Part shown: piece by piece, positions 2,870-39,373 of the stretch
Layout: every line of letters begins with the position of its first letter
Position numbering within the stretch: position 1 is the first letter of the stretch
IMG/VR virus record: IMGVR_UViG_3300010396_000069
Location: 1-40,482 of that record
Direction: 5' to 3' (one strand)
DNA length: 40,482 nt
DNA from: a virus
Translations under genes and position numbers: made by a program
Notes under the pieces: model-generated
What the model saw: the letters and a program-made list of their open reading frames with translations, nothing else
What the model was told of the DNA's origin: nothing
Database searches by the model: none

Positions 2870-3823
2870 ATGGCATTACGAGCGGTTCCAGAGCATCCGA
2901 AGTTCTTCGCGCTGAAGGATGCATTACATATCCGCAAGTATCACGCTCTGGGCATTCTGGAGGCGTTATGGCACTTCGCAGGGAAGTTCGCACCTCGTGG
3001 CAACGTAGGAAAGTTCAAAGACTCCGAAATAGAAGGTTGGCTCGAATGGGATGGGGAGCGCGGAGCATTGGTCGCCGCTCTCACAGATGTTGGATGGCTT
3101 GATAAGTCCGAAGAGCATCGCTTGGTTATTCATGATTGGCATGAGCATGCTGACCAGACTACTCGGAAGCAACTTGGCCGGACAAAGACTGCATTTGTCT
3201 CAGACATGTCTGGACAAGTCTCGGACGTGTCGGGACAAAACGGGAAAGTTTCAGGACCCCCAGAGCCTGTGCCTGTGCCTGTGCCTGTGCCTGACCCAGA
3301 GCCAGTACCAGCGCCAAAGACTCTTGCGTCCACCGCTATCGCGGTTCCCGCAGCACGCGGCAAGCTGGTTTGCACTTTGCCATTGAACACCGGAGATCAC
3401 GAAGTCTTCGAAGCGAGCGTTCAGGAGTGGATTGCTTTGTACCCCGCAGTGGACATTCGGCAGGAACTCCGCACGATGAAGGGCTGGCTGCTGGGAAGCC
3501 CACAGAGGCGCAAGACGAAGAGCGGGATCGGGAAGTTTATCAACGCATGGTTTGCACGAGCACAGAACGAATCTAGACCGGGAGTAGGAAATGGAACAAT
3601 CAATCGCAATCACGGAAAAACGGGCGGGAACCTTGATGCAGCAGCACAAGCCATCGCCTTCCTCGAAGCGCGAGATCGTACTGGCGCTGACGAAGTTCGC
3701 GGAGCGCAGACAGGCGCAGGTGAATGGATCGACCCTGGCGACGTTCGCGGAGGACCTGGAGCACTTCTCATTGATGGACATCGAAGCGGGATTGAAGGCG
3801 ATATCCTCTCGCCGCCGCGCTGA
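2870..3823 (+). CDS. Replication organiser/initiator-like protein
   Basis: The N-terminal ~100 residues (HPKFFALKDAL, ILEALWHFAG, then EIEGWLEWDGERGALVAAL and LVIHDWHEH) match the N-terminal domain common in phage replisome organisers and helicase-loader partners. A Pro-rich linker (PEPVPVPVPVP) and a second domain (about 165-235, with IALYPAVDIRQEL and GKFINAWFAR) follow. This is the layout of two-domain phage initiation proteins that bind an origin and recruit helicase. Residues after about 241 are read from DNA that also codes for the next gene, in another frame. That 233-bp overlap is unusual and suggests either dual coding or a lost stop. Confidence 0.65.
   Translation: MALRAVPEHPKFFALKDALHIRKYHALGILEALWHFAGKFAPRGNVGKFKDSEIEGWLEWDGERGALVAALTDVGWLDKSEEHRLVIHDWHEHADQTTRKQLGRTKTAFVSDMSGQVSDVSGQNGKVSGPPEPVPVPVPVPDPEPVPAPKTLASTAIAVPAARGKLVCTLPLNTGDHEVFEASVQEWIALYPAVDIRQELRTMKGWLLGSPQRRKTKSGIGKFINAWFARAQNESRPGVGNGTINRNHGKTGGNLDAAAQAIAFLEARDRTGADEVRGAQTGAGEWIDPGDVRGGPGALLIDGHRSGIEGDILSPPR
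3197..3238 (+). repeat. Two diverged 21-bp tandem copies in linker
   Basis: Two adjacent 21-bp units (3197-3217 and 3218-3238) are closely similar. They encode VSDMSGQ and VSDVSGQ in the linker of the replication protein. They look like an old in-frame tandem duplication. Confidence 0.75.
3266..3289 (+). repeat. CCTGTG x4 microsatellite
   Basis: Four perfect CCTGTG hexamers encode PVPVPVPV in the linker between the two domains of the replication protein. Length changes here would keep the frame and alter only linker length. Confidence 0.95.
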
Positions 3824-4205
3824 AGGGGAGACGGCCTTCCCTGAGATTCAGGCGATTGTGGAAGAGTGCCAAGCAGCCTCGCGCAGTCGCCGCATCGCCG
3901 CTGAGCGCGAGCGACGTATGGCAGATGAGGCCGCAGAACGCCGGCGCCGGGAGACGCACCCTGAAGACTACATCGCGGACGACGAAATCAAGGCAATGGC
4001 GGAAAAGCTATCGGCAAAGATTGGATTCGAGCAGCCGAAGGAGATAGAAATTCGCGAGCCTGCGATGCTTGCCTGCCCACACTGCTCGAAGGCTTTACCT
4101 GTATCCCCAAACATCCGCTTCTGGACCGCAGAAGAACTCAGAACCCACGCCGACACTTTAGACGAGTTGCAGCGTATGGCAGATAAGAACAGGGTGAGCC
4201 AGTGA
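3591..4205 (+). CDS. Uncharacterised replication-region protein
   Basis: The 204-residue product begins inside the upstream gene; the ATG has an RBS-like GTAGGA just before it. The N-terminal half is helical (ALTKFAERRQAQ, TLATFAEDLEHFS, AGLKAISSRRRAEGETAFPEI). The centre is a highly charged Arg/Glu helix. The C-terminus has a CPHC pair in ACPHCSKALP and a final helix. The helical half resembles loader or primosome accessory proteins next to phage initiators, but I do not recognise a family. An alternative ATG at 3636 would shorten it by 15 residues and still leave a long overlap. It overlaps the methyltransferase start by four bases. Confidence 0.7.
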   Translation: MEQSIAITEKRAGTLMQQHKPSPSSKREIVLALTKFAERRQAQVNGSTLATFAEDLEHFSLMDIEAGLKAISSRRRAEGETAFPEIQAIVEECQAASRSRRIAAERERRMADEAAERRRRETHPEDYIADDEIKAMAEKLSAKIGFEQPKEIEIREPAMLACPHCSKALPVSPNIRFWTAEELRTHADTLDELQRMADKNRVSQ

Positions 4206-35533: not shown

Positions 35534-36277
35534 ATGCATCGATTTCTAGCGCTTCTACTGCTTTCCCTCACTCTTATCTTCGCCGGGGCGCTTGCACAGG
35601 CCCAGACGATCACTGCAACGACTGCCCCCGTCGCCCGGATGGCGAATGCCTATCCGATCTGCAATGAGGGCTGCACGATCACCGCGATGCCGGTGGGCAC
35701 GGTGTGGCAGTTTGGCAAGGACGAGACGAAGTACGGGCAAACGAATACCTGGCTGCCCGCGCAGACTTCGACCGCGACGACTCCGAAGTTGCCGTTCTTC
35801 GTGTACTACACGGATTTTCCAGTCAACCCGACGCCGGAGACGAAAGAGCTGGACGTGCAGCAGACCAGCGCGCCGCAGACGATTGTCTACACCAATCCAT
35901 GCAGTCCGAGCCCATGCACGAACGCTCCGATCACGGTGATTGTGCCGGCGCTGGCTGCGACGCCGCCGCCTACGAATGCCTGCTCTGCCGACAATACGAG
36001 CTGCACGGTGGCGACGAACTCCGATGCGGCGCATATCATCACCACGGCGGGCGATGCGGCGCTGAACCCCTCCGAGACGGCGACGCTGAAGGCCGCGATC
36101 GGGGAGCTGCAGCACGCCCAGAGCGAGGTTGCGGCCGCGCAGGCGAACTTGCAGACGGTGCAGAAGGCGATTGCAGCCAATCATGGCGCAACCGCGGGGG
36201 GGCCTTATCAGATCTCGACTGACTTCGATACGACGATCGAGCAGGTTCCTCCTGTTCCGGTGACATCAGCGCAATGA
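35534..36277 (+). CDS. Secreted coiled-coil protein
   Basis: ATG 35534 has AAAGGAG upstream. The 247-residue product has a signal peptide (HRFLALLLLSLTLIFAGALAQAQ) and then a beta-rich part with GTVWQFGKDE and PKLPFFVYYTDFPV. Two Cys pairs follow, then a coiled coil (ETATLKAAIGELQHAQSEVAAAQANLQTV, about 180-215) and a polar end. It sits just before the LuxR-like and lysozyme genes, so a periplasmic lysis (spanin-like) role is possible, as is a tail-associated one. By eye the gene is clearly GC-richer than its neighbours, which suggests a different origin. Confidence 0.7.
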   Translation: MHRFLALLLLSLTLIFAGALAQAQTITATTAPVARMANAYPICNEGCTITAMPVGTVWQFGKDETKYGQTNTWLPAQTSTATTPKLPFFVYYTDFPVNPTPETKELDVQQTSAPQTIVYTNPCSPSPCTNAPITVIVPALAATPPPTNACSADNTSCTVATNSDAAHIITTAGDAALNPSETATLKAAIGELQHAQSEVAAAQANLQTVQKAIAANHGATAGGPYQISTDFDTTIEQVPPVPVTSAQ

Positions 36278-36519
36278 AGCTGACACGGCGTGAGCGCGAG
36301 GTCTCGAGGCTGGTGGCTGAGGGGCATACCAATGAATCAATTGGTCATCAACTCAGCATCGGCATAGCGACGGTCAAAAAGCATGTACAGGCCGCAACCT
36401 CAAAGCTAGGGTGCAAAAACCGCGTCGAACTTGCCGTCATGGTCGTAACGGAAAAGTACGAGGCACAACTGCAAAAACTGAGGCTCGAGTACTCGATGTT
36501 CGACCTCAACAGCCATTAG
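36274..36519 (+). CDS. Stand-alone LuxR/GerE-type HTH regulator
   Basis: The 81-residue product consists of a GerE helix-turn-helix plus a short tail: LTRREREVSRLVAEGHTNESIGHQLSIGIATVKKHVQAATSKLGCKNRVELAV (residues 3-55). The recognition helix is at ATVKKHVQ. No receiver or ligand domain is present. Such short forms can bind promoters directly or interfere with host LuxR-type regulators. It overlaps the secreted protein stop by ATGA and precedes lysozyme by seven bases, so it is expressed late and could influence lysis timing or host genes. Confidence 0.88.
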   Translation: MKLTRREREVSRLVAEGHTNESIGHQLSIGIATVKKHVQAATSKLGCKNRVELAVMVVTEKYEAQLQKLRLEYSMFDLNSH

Positions 36520-37293: not shown

Positions 37294-37458
37294 CTCTTCC
37301 TCCTACTTCGGCTCTGCGTGCGGGTGAAAGTCAACAGCCTGCTGCACTGAACACGCCCAGATGCGGGGCTCTTTGTGAATCCATCCCTTGCCGATTGGTC
37401 TGAATATCTGTGAGTTGCAATTTACACATTCAGCTATCCGCTTCATCTCTTCCTCCTA
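37290..37458 (-). repeat. Duplicated 16-bp RBS-start element
   Basis: The identical 16-mer TAGGAGGAAGAGATGA (reverse strand) occurs at 37290-37305 and 37443-37458, each covering the RBS and start of a reverse gene. In both, the TAG lies in the upstream gene. It may be the remains of a duplication or a shared efficient start. Confidence 0.85.
37303..37446 (-). CDS. Small Cys/His protein, reverse operon
   Basis: The 47-residue product has AECVNCNSQIFRPIGKGWIH and later WACSVQQ-type residues with a C-x2-C...H...C pattern. Small phage proteins with CxxC, a GWxH turn and a final Cys are frequent and probably bind zinc. The ATG overlaps the stop of the ribbon-helix-helix gene (ATGA), and an ideal RBS precedes it. 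Confidence 0.7.
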   Translation of the reverse strand: MKRIAECVNCNSQIFRPIGKGWIHKEPRIWACSVQQAVDFHPHAEPK

Positions 37459-37649
37459 GCCACGCCTTCGGGTGTGGCTTTTTCTTTTTGTGGCGGCTTT
37501 ATTCCTCGGAGCTTCGCCAGATCAATCATGCCCTGCCTCATCACCGAATTGCCGTCGCCGCCAGTGTCAATCTCGAGCGCTTCTCTGATTGCTAATTCAT
37601 CATCGCTCAACCGGACGGTCATCTTGTGAGGTCTGCTTATCTCGGCCAT
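37443..37649 (-). CDS. Ribbon-helix-helix regulator, candidate repressor
   Basis: I chose ATG 37649 (68 residues, MAEISRPHKMTVRLSDDE); ATG 37676 would lie upstream of the predicted transcription start. KMTVRL is a strand, SDDELAIREALEI the first helix and NSVMRQGMIDLAKLRG the second, as in Arc/MetJ/CopG proteins, where dimer strands sit in the major groove. There is no RBS, and a -10 ends seven bases before the ATG, so the mRNA is probably leaderless, like lambda cI from PRM. Three bipartite 11-bp-spaced repeats lie upstream, fitting tandem binding of such dimers. Best candidate for a lysogeny regulator. Confidence 0.75.
   Translation of the reverse strand: MAEISRPHKMTVRLSDDELAIREALEIDTGGDGNSVMRQGMIDLAKLRGIKPPQKEKATPEGVARRKR
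37459..37483 (+). terminator. Forward terminator inside reverse coding DNA
   Basis: GCCACGCC-TTCG-GGTGTGGC forms an 8-bp stem (one G-T pair) with a TTCG loop and is followed by TTTTTC on the forward strand. It lies within the last codons of the reverse ribbon-helix-helix gene. It would stop forward late transcription before it opposes the repressor operon. Confidence 0.8.
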
Positions 37650-37656
37650 GTATTTG

Positions 37657-37683
37657 ATTATGCATATGCTTACCAAATGACAA
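37657..37683 (-). promoter_or_regulatory. Reverse promoter for ribbon-helix-helix gene
   Basis: On the reverse strand TTGTCA (37678-37683) is a good -35 and CATAAT (37657-37662) a good -10; the 15-base spacer is short. Transcription would begin at or next to the ATG at 37649, giving a leaderless message. GGTAAGCAT (37666-37674), close to the integrase-region operator half-site, lies in the spacer. Confidence 0.55.
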
Positions 37684-37803
37684 TGACCGTCTTCCAGACC
37701 CTCTTCAGACCTTTATTGCAGGTCTTTTGGTGGTCTTATAGACCCATTTTAGACCTACTCTGAGGCAATACTACGTTAGTGCTATGGATCGAATATGCAT
37801 ATG
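37660..37803. repeat. ATGCATATG 9-mers flanking the AGACC array
   Basis: ATGCATATG occurs at 37660-37668 and 37795-37803, one on each side of the AGACC array. The second sits in AATATGCATATG next to another ATAT-containing half (GCGCATATT). They may be extra protein-binding sites, but short AT-rich words recur by chance. Confidence 0.4.
37696..37756. promoter_or_regulatory. Three bipartite AGACC repeats, probable operators
   Basis: Three 17-bp elements follow AGACCm-N5-AGACCT: 37696-37712 forward, 37720-37736 reverse and 37740-37756 forward. Within each, the AGACC boxes are exactly 11 bp apart, about one helical turn, so both face the same side of DNA. The cluster lies about 50-110 bases upstream of the ribbon-helix-helix gene, after the end of the next reverse gene. 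Likely a protein-binding array. Confidence 0.8.
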
Positions 37804-37837
37804 AAGCGCATATTGAGAGTCCTTGAACGCCATGAAA

Positions 37838-37999
37838 CTATTTGTCTTTGTTCTCTGCCTTTTTCCTATCCCACAGCGTTTTCGCTGCCTTCCTCGCCCT
37901 CTCTGTTCTTTCGTCCGGGGTCATCTTAGAAGACGACTTTTTGCCCATTTTTGAAAAATATGCCGAGACTTCCTTTGAGACCGATGCTTTTTTCACCAT
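37838..37999 (-). CDS. Small basic protein divergent from integrase
   Basis: The 53-residue product MVKKASVSKEVSAYFSKMGKK continues with SKMTPDERTERARKAAKTLWDRKK. This form (a short strand or helix, Lys-rich turn, then TPEERxExARKAAxxRW) is common in small basic bacterial and phage proteins. Its function is unknown; DNA binding is plausible. The ATG starts two or three bases from the predicted transcription start, so the message is nearly leaderless. It diverges from the integrase and shares its regulatory region. Confidence 0.65.
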   Translation of the reverse strand: MVKKASVSKEVSAYFSKMGKKSSSKMTPDERTERARKAAKTLWDRKKAENKDK

Positions 38000-38008
38000 A
38001 TGAACGTT

Positions 38009-38037
38009 AAGCTAACGGTAAGCAACAAAAGTGTCAA
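38009..38037 (-). promoter_or_regulatory. Reverse promoter of the divergent pair
   Basis: On the reverse strand TTGACA (38032-38037, perfect -35) is followed after 17 bases by TAGCTT (38009-38014). The -10 overlaps the operator at 38011-38023. It drives the small basic gene ending at 37838. The -35 directly abuts the forward -35 of the integrase promoter. Confidence 0.6.
38011..38023. promoter_or_regulatory. Operator copy 1
   Basis: GCTAACGGTAAGC is an inverted repeat with one mismatch and closely matches the palindrome at 38066-38082. It overlaps the -10 of the reverse promoter. Confidence 0.6.
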
Positions 38038-38066: not shown

Positions 38067-38082
38067 TGCTAACCGTTAGCAT
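38066..38082. promoter_or_regulatory. Operator copy 2, 17-bp palindrome
   Basis: ATGCTAAC-C-GTTAGCAT is a perfect inverted repeat around one central base. It overlaps the end of the integrase promoter -10. A half-site (ATGCTTACC) also lies at 37666-37674 in the ribbon-helix-helix gene promoter. One regulator could thus control all three promoters. Confidence 0.7.
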
Positions 38083-38114: not shown

Positions 38115-39212
38115 ATGACGATCCCCCACGAACTGCGTGCTCATGACGGGCATGTTCACTCACCACCTTTACAGCACACGTTTGCGCATGAAAACTGCCC
38201 AGCGTGCGAAGCAACAAGGACAGATACATTGGGCTCCGATCCTGATTTCCTGCTTAAGTTGGACTTTTCTACTGCCGCCGCAAAATGGTTAGCAACGCGT
38301 AAACCTTACCTGAGAGAGCGCTCGTTCTATATGATCGAGCAGCACGTTCACCAGCTCAATCGCTTTTTTGCCGACACGAAGAGTTCAGACATTCACATCG
38401 GGCATCTGCGCCGGTATCAGCGTGAGCGCGCTGCGAATGAGAACAGGCTTTGGGCTAGGCGCGCCGGTCCTTCCATCATCAACCATGAAATGTCGGTGAT
38501 GCAGCAGTTTCTAAAGCGTTGCGGGCGCTGGAAGGACTTCGCCGACCACTACGAGCCCCTACCCCTTCCGCCGTCGAAGAAGCCTAAGGTGATGACATCT
38601 GAAGAGGAATACCGGCTATTTCAGATCGCGAAGAGTTCGCCAGACTTCGAGCTGGCTTATCTGGTCGCGAGCATCTCTGTGAACACCACGGCGTGTGGGT
38701 CTGAGCTTCGCTATCTGCGCCTGGAACACATCTCGCTAGAAGGCAGTCCGAAGTTCACCGTTAACCCTGATCACACAAAAAACGAGTTCCGTTCCCGCAC
38801 GATTCCATTGAATGCGACGGCAGCGGCCCAGATGCGGCAGTGCATTCTGCGCGCACATTCTCTCGGATCTTTCCTCCCCGAGCATTATCTGTTTCCTAAG
38901 CGAGTCACCCGCAACCTCTGGGACCCATATAAGCCAGCTTCAACTTCATGGCTTAGAACCTCATTTGCAGCGCTCAGGGAGGCCGCGGACCTGCCTTGGC
39001 TCACTCCGCATTGCCTGAGGCATCAAAGCGTCACAAAACTCTTGGAACTCGGCATAGCGCCTGAAGTCGTGAAGAGCATAAGCGGCCATATATCGGACCA
39101 AATGATGCGACATTATTGTCACACTCGATTCTCTGCATCGCTCGAGGCTTTGAGCAAAATCGACTCTGGAAGCGTCCGGCCCAATGGTAGAATCCAACGT
39201 GCGAGGGCGTAG
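38115..39212 (+). CDS. int: Tyrosine recombinase integrase, Arg I replaced
   Basis: The start has AGGAGA upstream. The 365-residue product has a SAM-like core-binding domain (about 50-155) and a catalytic domain with K222 (HTKN), H299-x-x-R302 (TPHCLRH), H325 (SGH) and Tyr334 (RHYCH). At the usual first Arg (box I, TG-x-R-x-SEL) the protein reads TTACGSEL, with Cys194 where Arg is expected; the codon is TGT, one transition from CGT. It should insert and excise the phage genome. The stop codon is bases 8-10 of the tRNA-Arg, so the likely attachment site is the tRNA. A CPAC motif lies near the N-terminus. Confidence 0.92.
   Translation: MTIPHELRAHDGHVHSPPLQHTFAHENCPACEATRTDTLGSDPDFLLKLDFSTAAAKWLATRKPYLRERSFYMIEQHVHQLNRFFADTKSSDIHIGHLRRYQRERAANENRLWARRAGPSIINHEMSVMQQFLKRCGRWKDFADHYEPLPLPPSKKPKVMTSEEEYRLFQIAKSSPDFELAYLVASISVNTTACGSELRYLRLEHISLEGSPKFTVNPDHTKNEFRSRTIPLNATAAAQMRQCILRAHSLGSFLPEHYLFPKRVTRNLWDPYKPASTSWLRTSFAALREAADLPWLTPHCLRHQSVTKLLELGIAPEVVKSISGHISDQMMRHYCHTRFSASLEALSKIDSGSVRPNGRIQRARA
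39188..39193 (+). promoter_or_regulatory. -10 box before tRNA, inside integrase gene
   Basis: TAGAAT, one base from consensus, lies about ten bases before the tRNA 5' end, within the last integrase codons. No clear -35 is seen. It could allow tRNA expression apart from the integrase promoter. Confidence 0.4.
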
Positions 39213-39279
39213 CTCAGTCGGATAGAGCAACGGTTTTCTAAACCGTTGGTCGCAGGTTCGAGTCCTGCCGCCCTCACCA
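39203..39279 (+). tRNA. tRNA-Arg: tRNA-Arg(TCT)
   Basis: GAGGGCG pairs with CGCCCTC in the acceptor stem; D-arm GCTC/GAGC; anticodon stem ACGGT/ACCGT with loop TTTCTAA, anticodon TCT (reads AGA); T-arm GCAGG/CCTGC with TTCGAGT; CCA is encoded. All bases needed for a working tRNA are present. Bases 8-10 (TAG) form the integrase stop. It is probably the att site and may also supply a codon that is rare in GC-rich hosts. Confidence 0.97.
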
Positions 39280-39316: not shown

Positions 39317-39343
39317 AAATAATCAAACATCAGCCGATTATTT
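39317..39343. promoter_or_regulatory. Inverted repeat upstream of early promoter
   Basis: AAATAATC (39317-39324) and GATTATTT (39336-39343) form a perfect 8-bp inverted repeat with an 11-base spacer, ending just before the -35. Probable binding site of an early regulator. Confidence 0.55.
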
Positions 39344-39345
39344 TC

Positions 39346-39373
39346 TTGACAACATGCTGAAGGAGATTATTAT
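39346..39373 (+). promoter_or_regulatory. Strong early promoter
   Basis: TTGACA (perfect -35, 39346-39351), a 16-base spacer and TATTAT (39368-39373) give one of the best consensus promoters in the window. It faces the early genes that begin at 39553. The leader of about 170 bases holds no gene but has repeats (CATCAGCC at 39328-39335 and 39465-39472). Confidence 0.75.

Follow-up and report, generated by a model that had tools for sequence, protein, structure and literature searches.

Genomic organization of the locus

The DNA analyzed here, referred to as the window, is a virus record of 40,482 nucleotides (IMG/VR record IMGVR_UViG_3300010396_000069, positions 1 to 40,482). It encodes P22-type portal and coat proteins and belongs to a P22-like temperate podophage. 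The region of interest comprises, in minus-strand order, a 53-aa ORF, an array of AGACC boxes and a gene whose 68-aa product is predicted to fold as a ribbon-helix-helix (RHH) protein, with the integrase gene on the plus strand. The main features are as follows.

37443-37649, minus strand: gene for the 68-aa RHH protein (predicted fold), downstream of the array
37838-37999, minus strand: 53-aa basic ORF upstream of the array, on the same strand as the RHH gene, of no family
38115-39212, plus strand: tyrosine integrase (Pfam PF00589, E 3e-18; phrog_1)
39203-39279, plus strand: complete tRNA-Arg(TCT) overlapping the integrase stop codon; probable attP core region
39346-39373, plus strand: early promoter candidate TTGACA-N16-TATTAT, the TTGAC of which is kept in the related phage L004

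The early genes stand after this promoter candidate, past the integrase and tRNA-Arg, and a gene for a GerE-type protein (domain E 4e-16) is located at 36274-36519. The sequence AATAATC-N11-GATTATT at 39318-39342 was considered as an RHH operator at the early promoter and was rejected, since its frequency is that of chance (2 seen, 2.5 expected).

The overlap of tRNA-Arg(TCT) with the integrase end was also found in L004 (5044-5120). The anticodon stems of the two tRNA-Arg genes differ yet stay paired, so both genes look functional; the attachment site thus seems, from these sequences, to carry a whole tRNA gene. Because the integrase gene overlaps the tRNA gene in both phages, attP most likely lies at the tRNA-Arg (39203-39279), about 1.45 kb from the array. 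The ATCATCAGC repeats downstream of the tRNA are partly kept in the window and L004. A search for the host by the tRNA-Arg sequence found no genome with a matching sequence. The integrases of the window and of the phages L004, L006 and L077 have in common an H-x3-H-x2/3-C-x2-C motif near the N-terminus, for example HTFAHENCPAC, encoded in the region of 38115-38250 in the window. It resembles a small zinc-binding knuckle at the place where the arm-binding domain would be expected.

Sequence and geometry of the AGACC array

Six AGACC boxes in three pairs of 11-bp spacing, one of them inverted, had been noted upstream of the RHH gene in a preliminary description made from the sequence, and both the boxes and their coordinates proved correct. 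The pairs, together with one degenerate box, are listed below.

37684-37688, plus strand: degenerate box TGACC, a possible seventh (one mismatch, weak)
37696-37712, plus strand: pair A, AGACCCTCTTCAGACCT, boxes at 37696-37700 and 37707-37711, exact pattern match
37720-37736, minus strand: pair B, AGACCACCAAAAGACCT, inverted, boxes at 37732-37736 and 37721-37725, exact pattern match
37740-37756, plus strand: pair C, AGACCCATTTTAGACCT, boxes at 37740-37744 and 37751-37755, exact pattern match

Both direct reading and pattern search gave exactly three matches to AGACC-N6-AGACC in the 40,482-base window, all of them at 37696-37756, so that no further such pair is present, as had been claimed. The exact 16-bp spans are 37696-37711 (plus), 37721-37736 (minus) and 37740-37755 (plus); the pairs run forward, reverse, forward, and the array extends over 37696-37756 when the trailing T is included. 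The AGACC core of the originally proposed AGACCm/AGACCT boxes was retained, but the flanking base is not fixed, the consensus being AGACC followed by C, T or A. The TGACC candidate lies one lattice step further toward the promoter, at 12 bp instead of 11.

The pentamer AGACC occurs 69 times in the whole window. Outside the array, just two sets of same-strand boxes less than 32 bp apart were found, 2626/2645 at 19 bp and 33364/33395 at 31 bp. In a shuffle test over every 5-mer at spacings of 6-25 bp, none of 60 dinucleotide-preserving shuffles contained three equally spaced same-strand pairs of any 5-mer within 80 bp, and a chance origin of the array was accordingly rejected. When two mismatches were allowed, AGACC-N6-AGACC gave 34 matches against 29 expected, indicating that the signal is confined to the three exact pairs.

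The real window holds one other cluster of equally spaced 5-mer pairs, a 27-bp coding tandem repeat at 1-329. This stretch comprises 12 copies at the very start of the record and could be an assembly break point; other repeat-coding stretches are present in related phages.

Beyond the pairing, the three elements turned out to be in register with one another, a regularity absent from the preliminary description. Taken on AGAC|C, the box centers fall at 37699.5, 37710.5, 37721.5, 37732.5, 37743.5 and 37754.5, all 11.0 bp apart, and the box orientations read F F R R F F. Since all six centers share one lattice, the array forms a single row of six slots and not three independent elements. Such an exact register would be expected in about 2.5% of cases if three 11-bp pairs were separated by random gaps of 0-20 bp; this counts as moderate evidence, as the axis was chosen after looking. 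The array is unusually regular, and its general kind is familiar.

The RHH gene and its promoter

Two structure models of the 68-aa protein (mean pLDDT 76 and 78) matched Arc, CopG, ParG and other RHH proteins. Arc was the top PDB match with a probability of 0.95, and nearly all other top matches were RHH proteins; none had an E-value below 0.001, which is unsurprising for so short a chain. No RHH family was reached in the Pfam comparison, and relatives of the protein gave weak matches to DUF6290/NikA-like families. The gene product is therefore predicted, from these models, to be an RHH protein. The claim that the array stands upstream of an RHH gene was borne out in this form, with the array directly upstream of the promoter. 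The control motifs in and around that promoter are the following.

37657-37662, minus strand: CATAAT, the predicted -10 hexamer for RHH, separated from the ATG by exactly 7 nt
37668-37674, minus strand: GGTAAGC, in the RHH promoter spacer, one of 2 copies in the window
37769-37784, minus strand: TAGCACTAACGTAGTA, an 11-bp direct-repeat-like element common to the relative L004
38011-38080: candidate palindromic operators between the 53-aa ORF and the integrase gene, GCTAACGGTAAGC at 38011-38023 and GCTAACCGTTAGC at 38068-38080

A NATAAT hexamer exactly 7 nt before the ATG was found in five of five RHH homologues (those of the window, L060, L077, L004 and L079), and in the window the RHH gene is the only one of 128 ATG ORFs to have it. 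This fixed distance suggests that the RHH transcript is leaderless, as is that of lambda cI from PRM. From the conserved place of the -10 hexamer, the array sits at about -46 to -106 of the RHH promoter, its end being about 46 bp upstream of the predicted transcription start. The promoter is regarded as weak and has no convincing -35 hexamer at normal spacing.

The second copy of GGTAAGC (38017-38023) lies inside the integrase-side operator GCTAACGGTAAGC, of which the motif is one half; this operator and GCTAACCGTTAGC are the only exact matches to the palindrome motif in the window. GGTAAGC is a second candidate control motif and may be a repressor site at the RHH promoter. If the RHH protein binds GGTAAGC, the AGACC array belongs to another protein. 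The sequence TAGCACwAACGTAGTA upstream of the RHH gene is kept in the window (37769-37784) and in L004 (about 3815-3830).

Distribution of the array among relatives

The phage L004 shares the tRNA overlap and has an integrase 68% identical to that of the window; its RHH gene stands at the corresponding place and encodes a protein 24-29% identical, and no AGACC pair was found in the region upstream of that gene. In L077, the gene order (integrase, small ORF, RHH, lysozyme, GerE) is that of the window and the RHH homologue is 44% identical, and neither AGACC pairs nor an array were found upstream of the RHH gene. The close relative L060 (portal 95% identical) encodes an RHH homologue of 41% identity, and its contig breaks off about 32 bp before the position of the array. 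A further RHH homologue is encoded by L079. The array is therefore absent from both relatives with a readable region, L004 and L077, and has been found in one genome so far. Among 35 records of portal relatives, L004's included and many of them partial, one stray pair and no array were detected, and searches by integrase, RHH protein or DNA found no known phage relative.

The exact two-pair layout gave no match in IMG/VR. A gapped search returned a single record, that of a Mu-like phage (L059; IMGVR_UViG_2901954164_000005), in which five AGACC boxes occupy about 40 bp (2260-2302) between a head-morphogenesis-like gene and the one that follows it, an unrelated place between structural genes. 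Since about one such match is expected by chance on our own estimate, it is taken as coincidence in spite of its five boxes.

Proposed binding of the array by the RHH protein

The array is very probably a protein-binding regulatory site of the RHH promoter region. The geometry alone does not settle which protein binds: one-turn repeats serve OmpR-family regulators and excisionases, and RHH proteins recognize repeated boxes at other spacings. The reading we tentatively prefer, although we hold it at somewhat less than an even chance, is that the RHH protein itself binds the array as an operator array for its own promoter. In such a complex, RHH dimers would bind one per box, side by side on the same DNA face and one helical turn apart, and the complex at about -46 to -106 would set RHH output, either by touching RNA polymerase or by extending into the promoter. 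The RHH regulator might in this way control its own level during lysogeny; the binder, the autoregulation and the lysogeny role are all inferred.

Two features favor the RHH protein as binder. The first is the adjacency of the array to its gene. The second is the mixed orientation on one lattice, which favors a symmetric dimer such as RHH, since a two-fold symmetric dimer takes a box in either orientation and would thereby account for the F F R R F F pattern. On the other side, the array lies upstream of the promoter and not over it, and GGTAAGC occupies the promoter spacer. The array was likewise not found in L077, whose homologue has near-identical predicted DNA-contact residues (K-S-R against K-T-R in the window protein, at positions taken from Arc). 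This result, from a single homologue with a T/S difference, makes an RHH operator less probable. The upstream regions of L077 and the window have three 8-mers with a GTC core in common, GACGGTCA, GTCTGGAA and GGTCTATA (shuffle p ~0.02-0.04), which hint weakly at RHH binding. Of the autoregulatory array originally proposed, then, the predicted RHH fold, the upstream position and the suitability of mixed orientation for dimers stood; the absence from L077 and the placement off the promoter spoke against it, and RHH autoregulation through the array is possible.

The arc operator, a single one with inverted half-sites inside the promoter, takes up two Arc dimers at a distance of about 11 bp. The present locus resembles the Arc/Mnt system of P22 in that a P22-like phage encodes an RHH regulator, with Arc as its best structural match, and adjacent dimers would be about 11 bp apart; it differs in that the boxes number six, run mostly in direct order and precede the promoter, and in the unrelated box sequence. 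Dimers of dimers of the RHH protein omega/ParB of pSM19035 bind boxes in direct or inverted order (PMC9499535). A small RHH regulator and short asymmetric boxes, direct and inverted, near promoters are common to that system and the present one (PMC9499535); however, the boxes there are contiguous 7-bp heptads, unlike the 11-bp lattice of 5-bp boxes in the putative operator here, and no ParA partner was found in the window phage.

Alternative readings of the array

The alternative that survives best, though we consider it rather unlikely, is that a host OmpR/PhoB-type response regulator, or another head-to-tail activator, activates the weak RHH promoter and lets lysogeny control respond to a host signal. 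Hexamer-N5-hexamer direct repeats with 11-bp centers are the standard site of this family, several per site (PMC3798270), and the array matches them. ArcA, for example, recognizes 18-bp boxes of repeats 11 bp apart from center to center, often with extra repeats (PMC3798270), and PhoP of M. tuberculosis uses 7-bp repeats with a 4-bp spacer (PMC4832192). The position at -46 to -106 suits an activator, as does a promoter with no convincing -35 at normal spacing. However, these phages encode no OmpR-type DNA-binding domain, so the regulator would be the host's; the inverted central pair breaks head-to-tail packing, the phage contains no other exact AGACC pair, and the sequence is not known to match any named box. 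The more specific proposal, in which a lineage-specific row of six slots with exact 11-bp spacing has been placed before a leaderless promoter and couples lysogeny to a host two-component regulator, is distinctly unlikely.

Equally doubtful is binding by another small phage regulator, either the 53-aa basic protein or the GerE-type protein, both of which are encoded within 1.5 kb. The GerE-type protein, with its well-matched domain, is also encoded by the L077 phage, beside the lysozyme gene, but that phage has the protein without the array. The 53-aa protein was assigned to no family and has no recognized DNA-binding domain.

An excisionase or recombination directionality factor (RDF) of the Xis/Cox/Apl kind, forming a filament on helical-turn repeats and repressing the promoter, is very unlikely. 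Such proteins do bind direct repeats one turn apart, and the Apl protein of phage 186, with seven sites between pR and pL and five at att, provides a likeness in that helical-turn repeats control a phage lysogeny region (PMC7498355). The Apl sites, however, are all direct and lie also at att, whereas here the central pair is inverted and the array is not copied near the predicted attP; no RDF was identified in the window phage and no HTH_17 (Xis-like) domain in these phages, although, RDFs being diverse, one of another type may be encoded.

It is also highly improbable that the inverted repeats act as an RNA hairpin in a transcript running from the 53-aa ORF into the RHH gene. Minus-strand RNA of 37640-37850 folds better than shuffled sequences (z -2.7), and pairs C and B give an imperfect 35-nt hairpin; yet a hairpin needs neither exact 11-bp direct repeats nor a lattice, the plus-strand fold is ordinary (z -1.3) and no terminator-like site was found here.

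Arm-type sites of integrases can consist of direct repeats in pairs, spaced by roughly one helical turn, and the neighboring integrase gene lies some 360 bp from the array. This role, offered earlier as an alternative, is extremely unlikely: the integrase gene reads away from the array and ends, as in L004, in a complete tRNA-Arg, which places the inferred attP ~1.45 kb off rather than within a few hundred bp, and the L004 phage with its 68%-identical integrase lacks the array, while both phages partly retain the ATCATCAGC repeats next to the tRNA.

Significance

If the RHH protein binds, the array would represent an RHH operator array that combines one-turn (11-bp) spacing with mixed orientation, and would be useful for testing how asymmetric boxes are recognized by symmetric RHH dimers. 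Were the binder a host regulator, the locus would instead provide a phage lysogeny promoter reading host signaling. The locus also offers an initial view of the control region in a P22-like phage group known here only from metagenomes.
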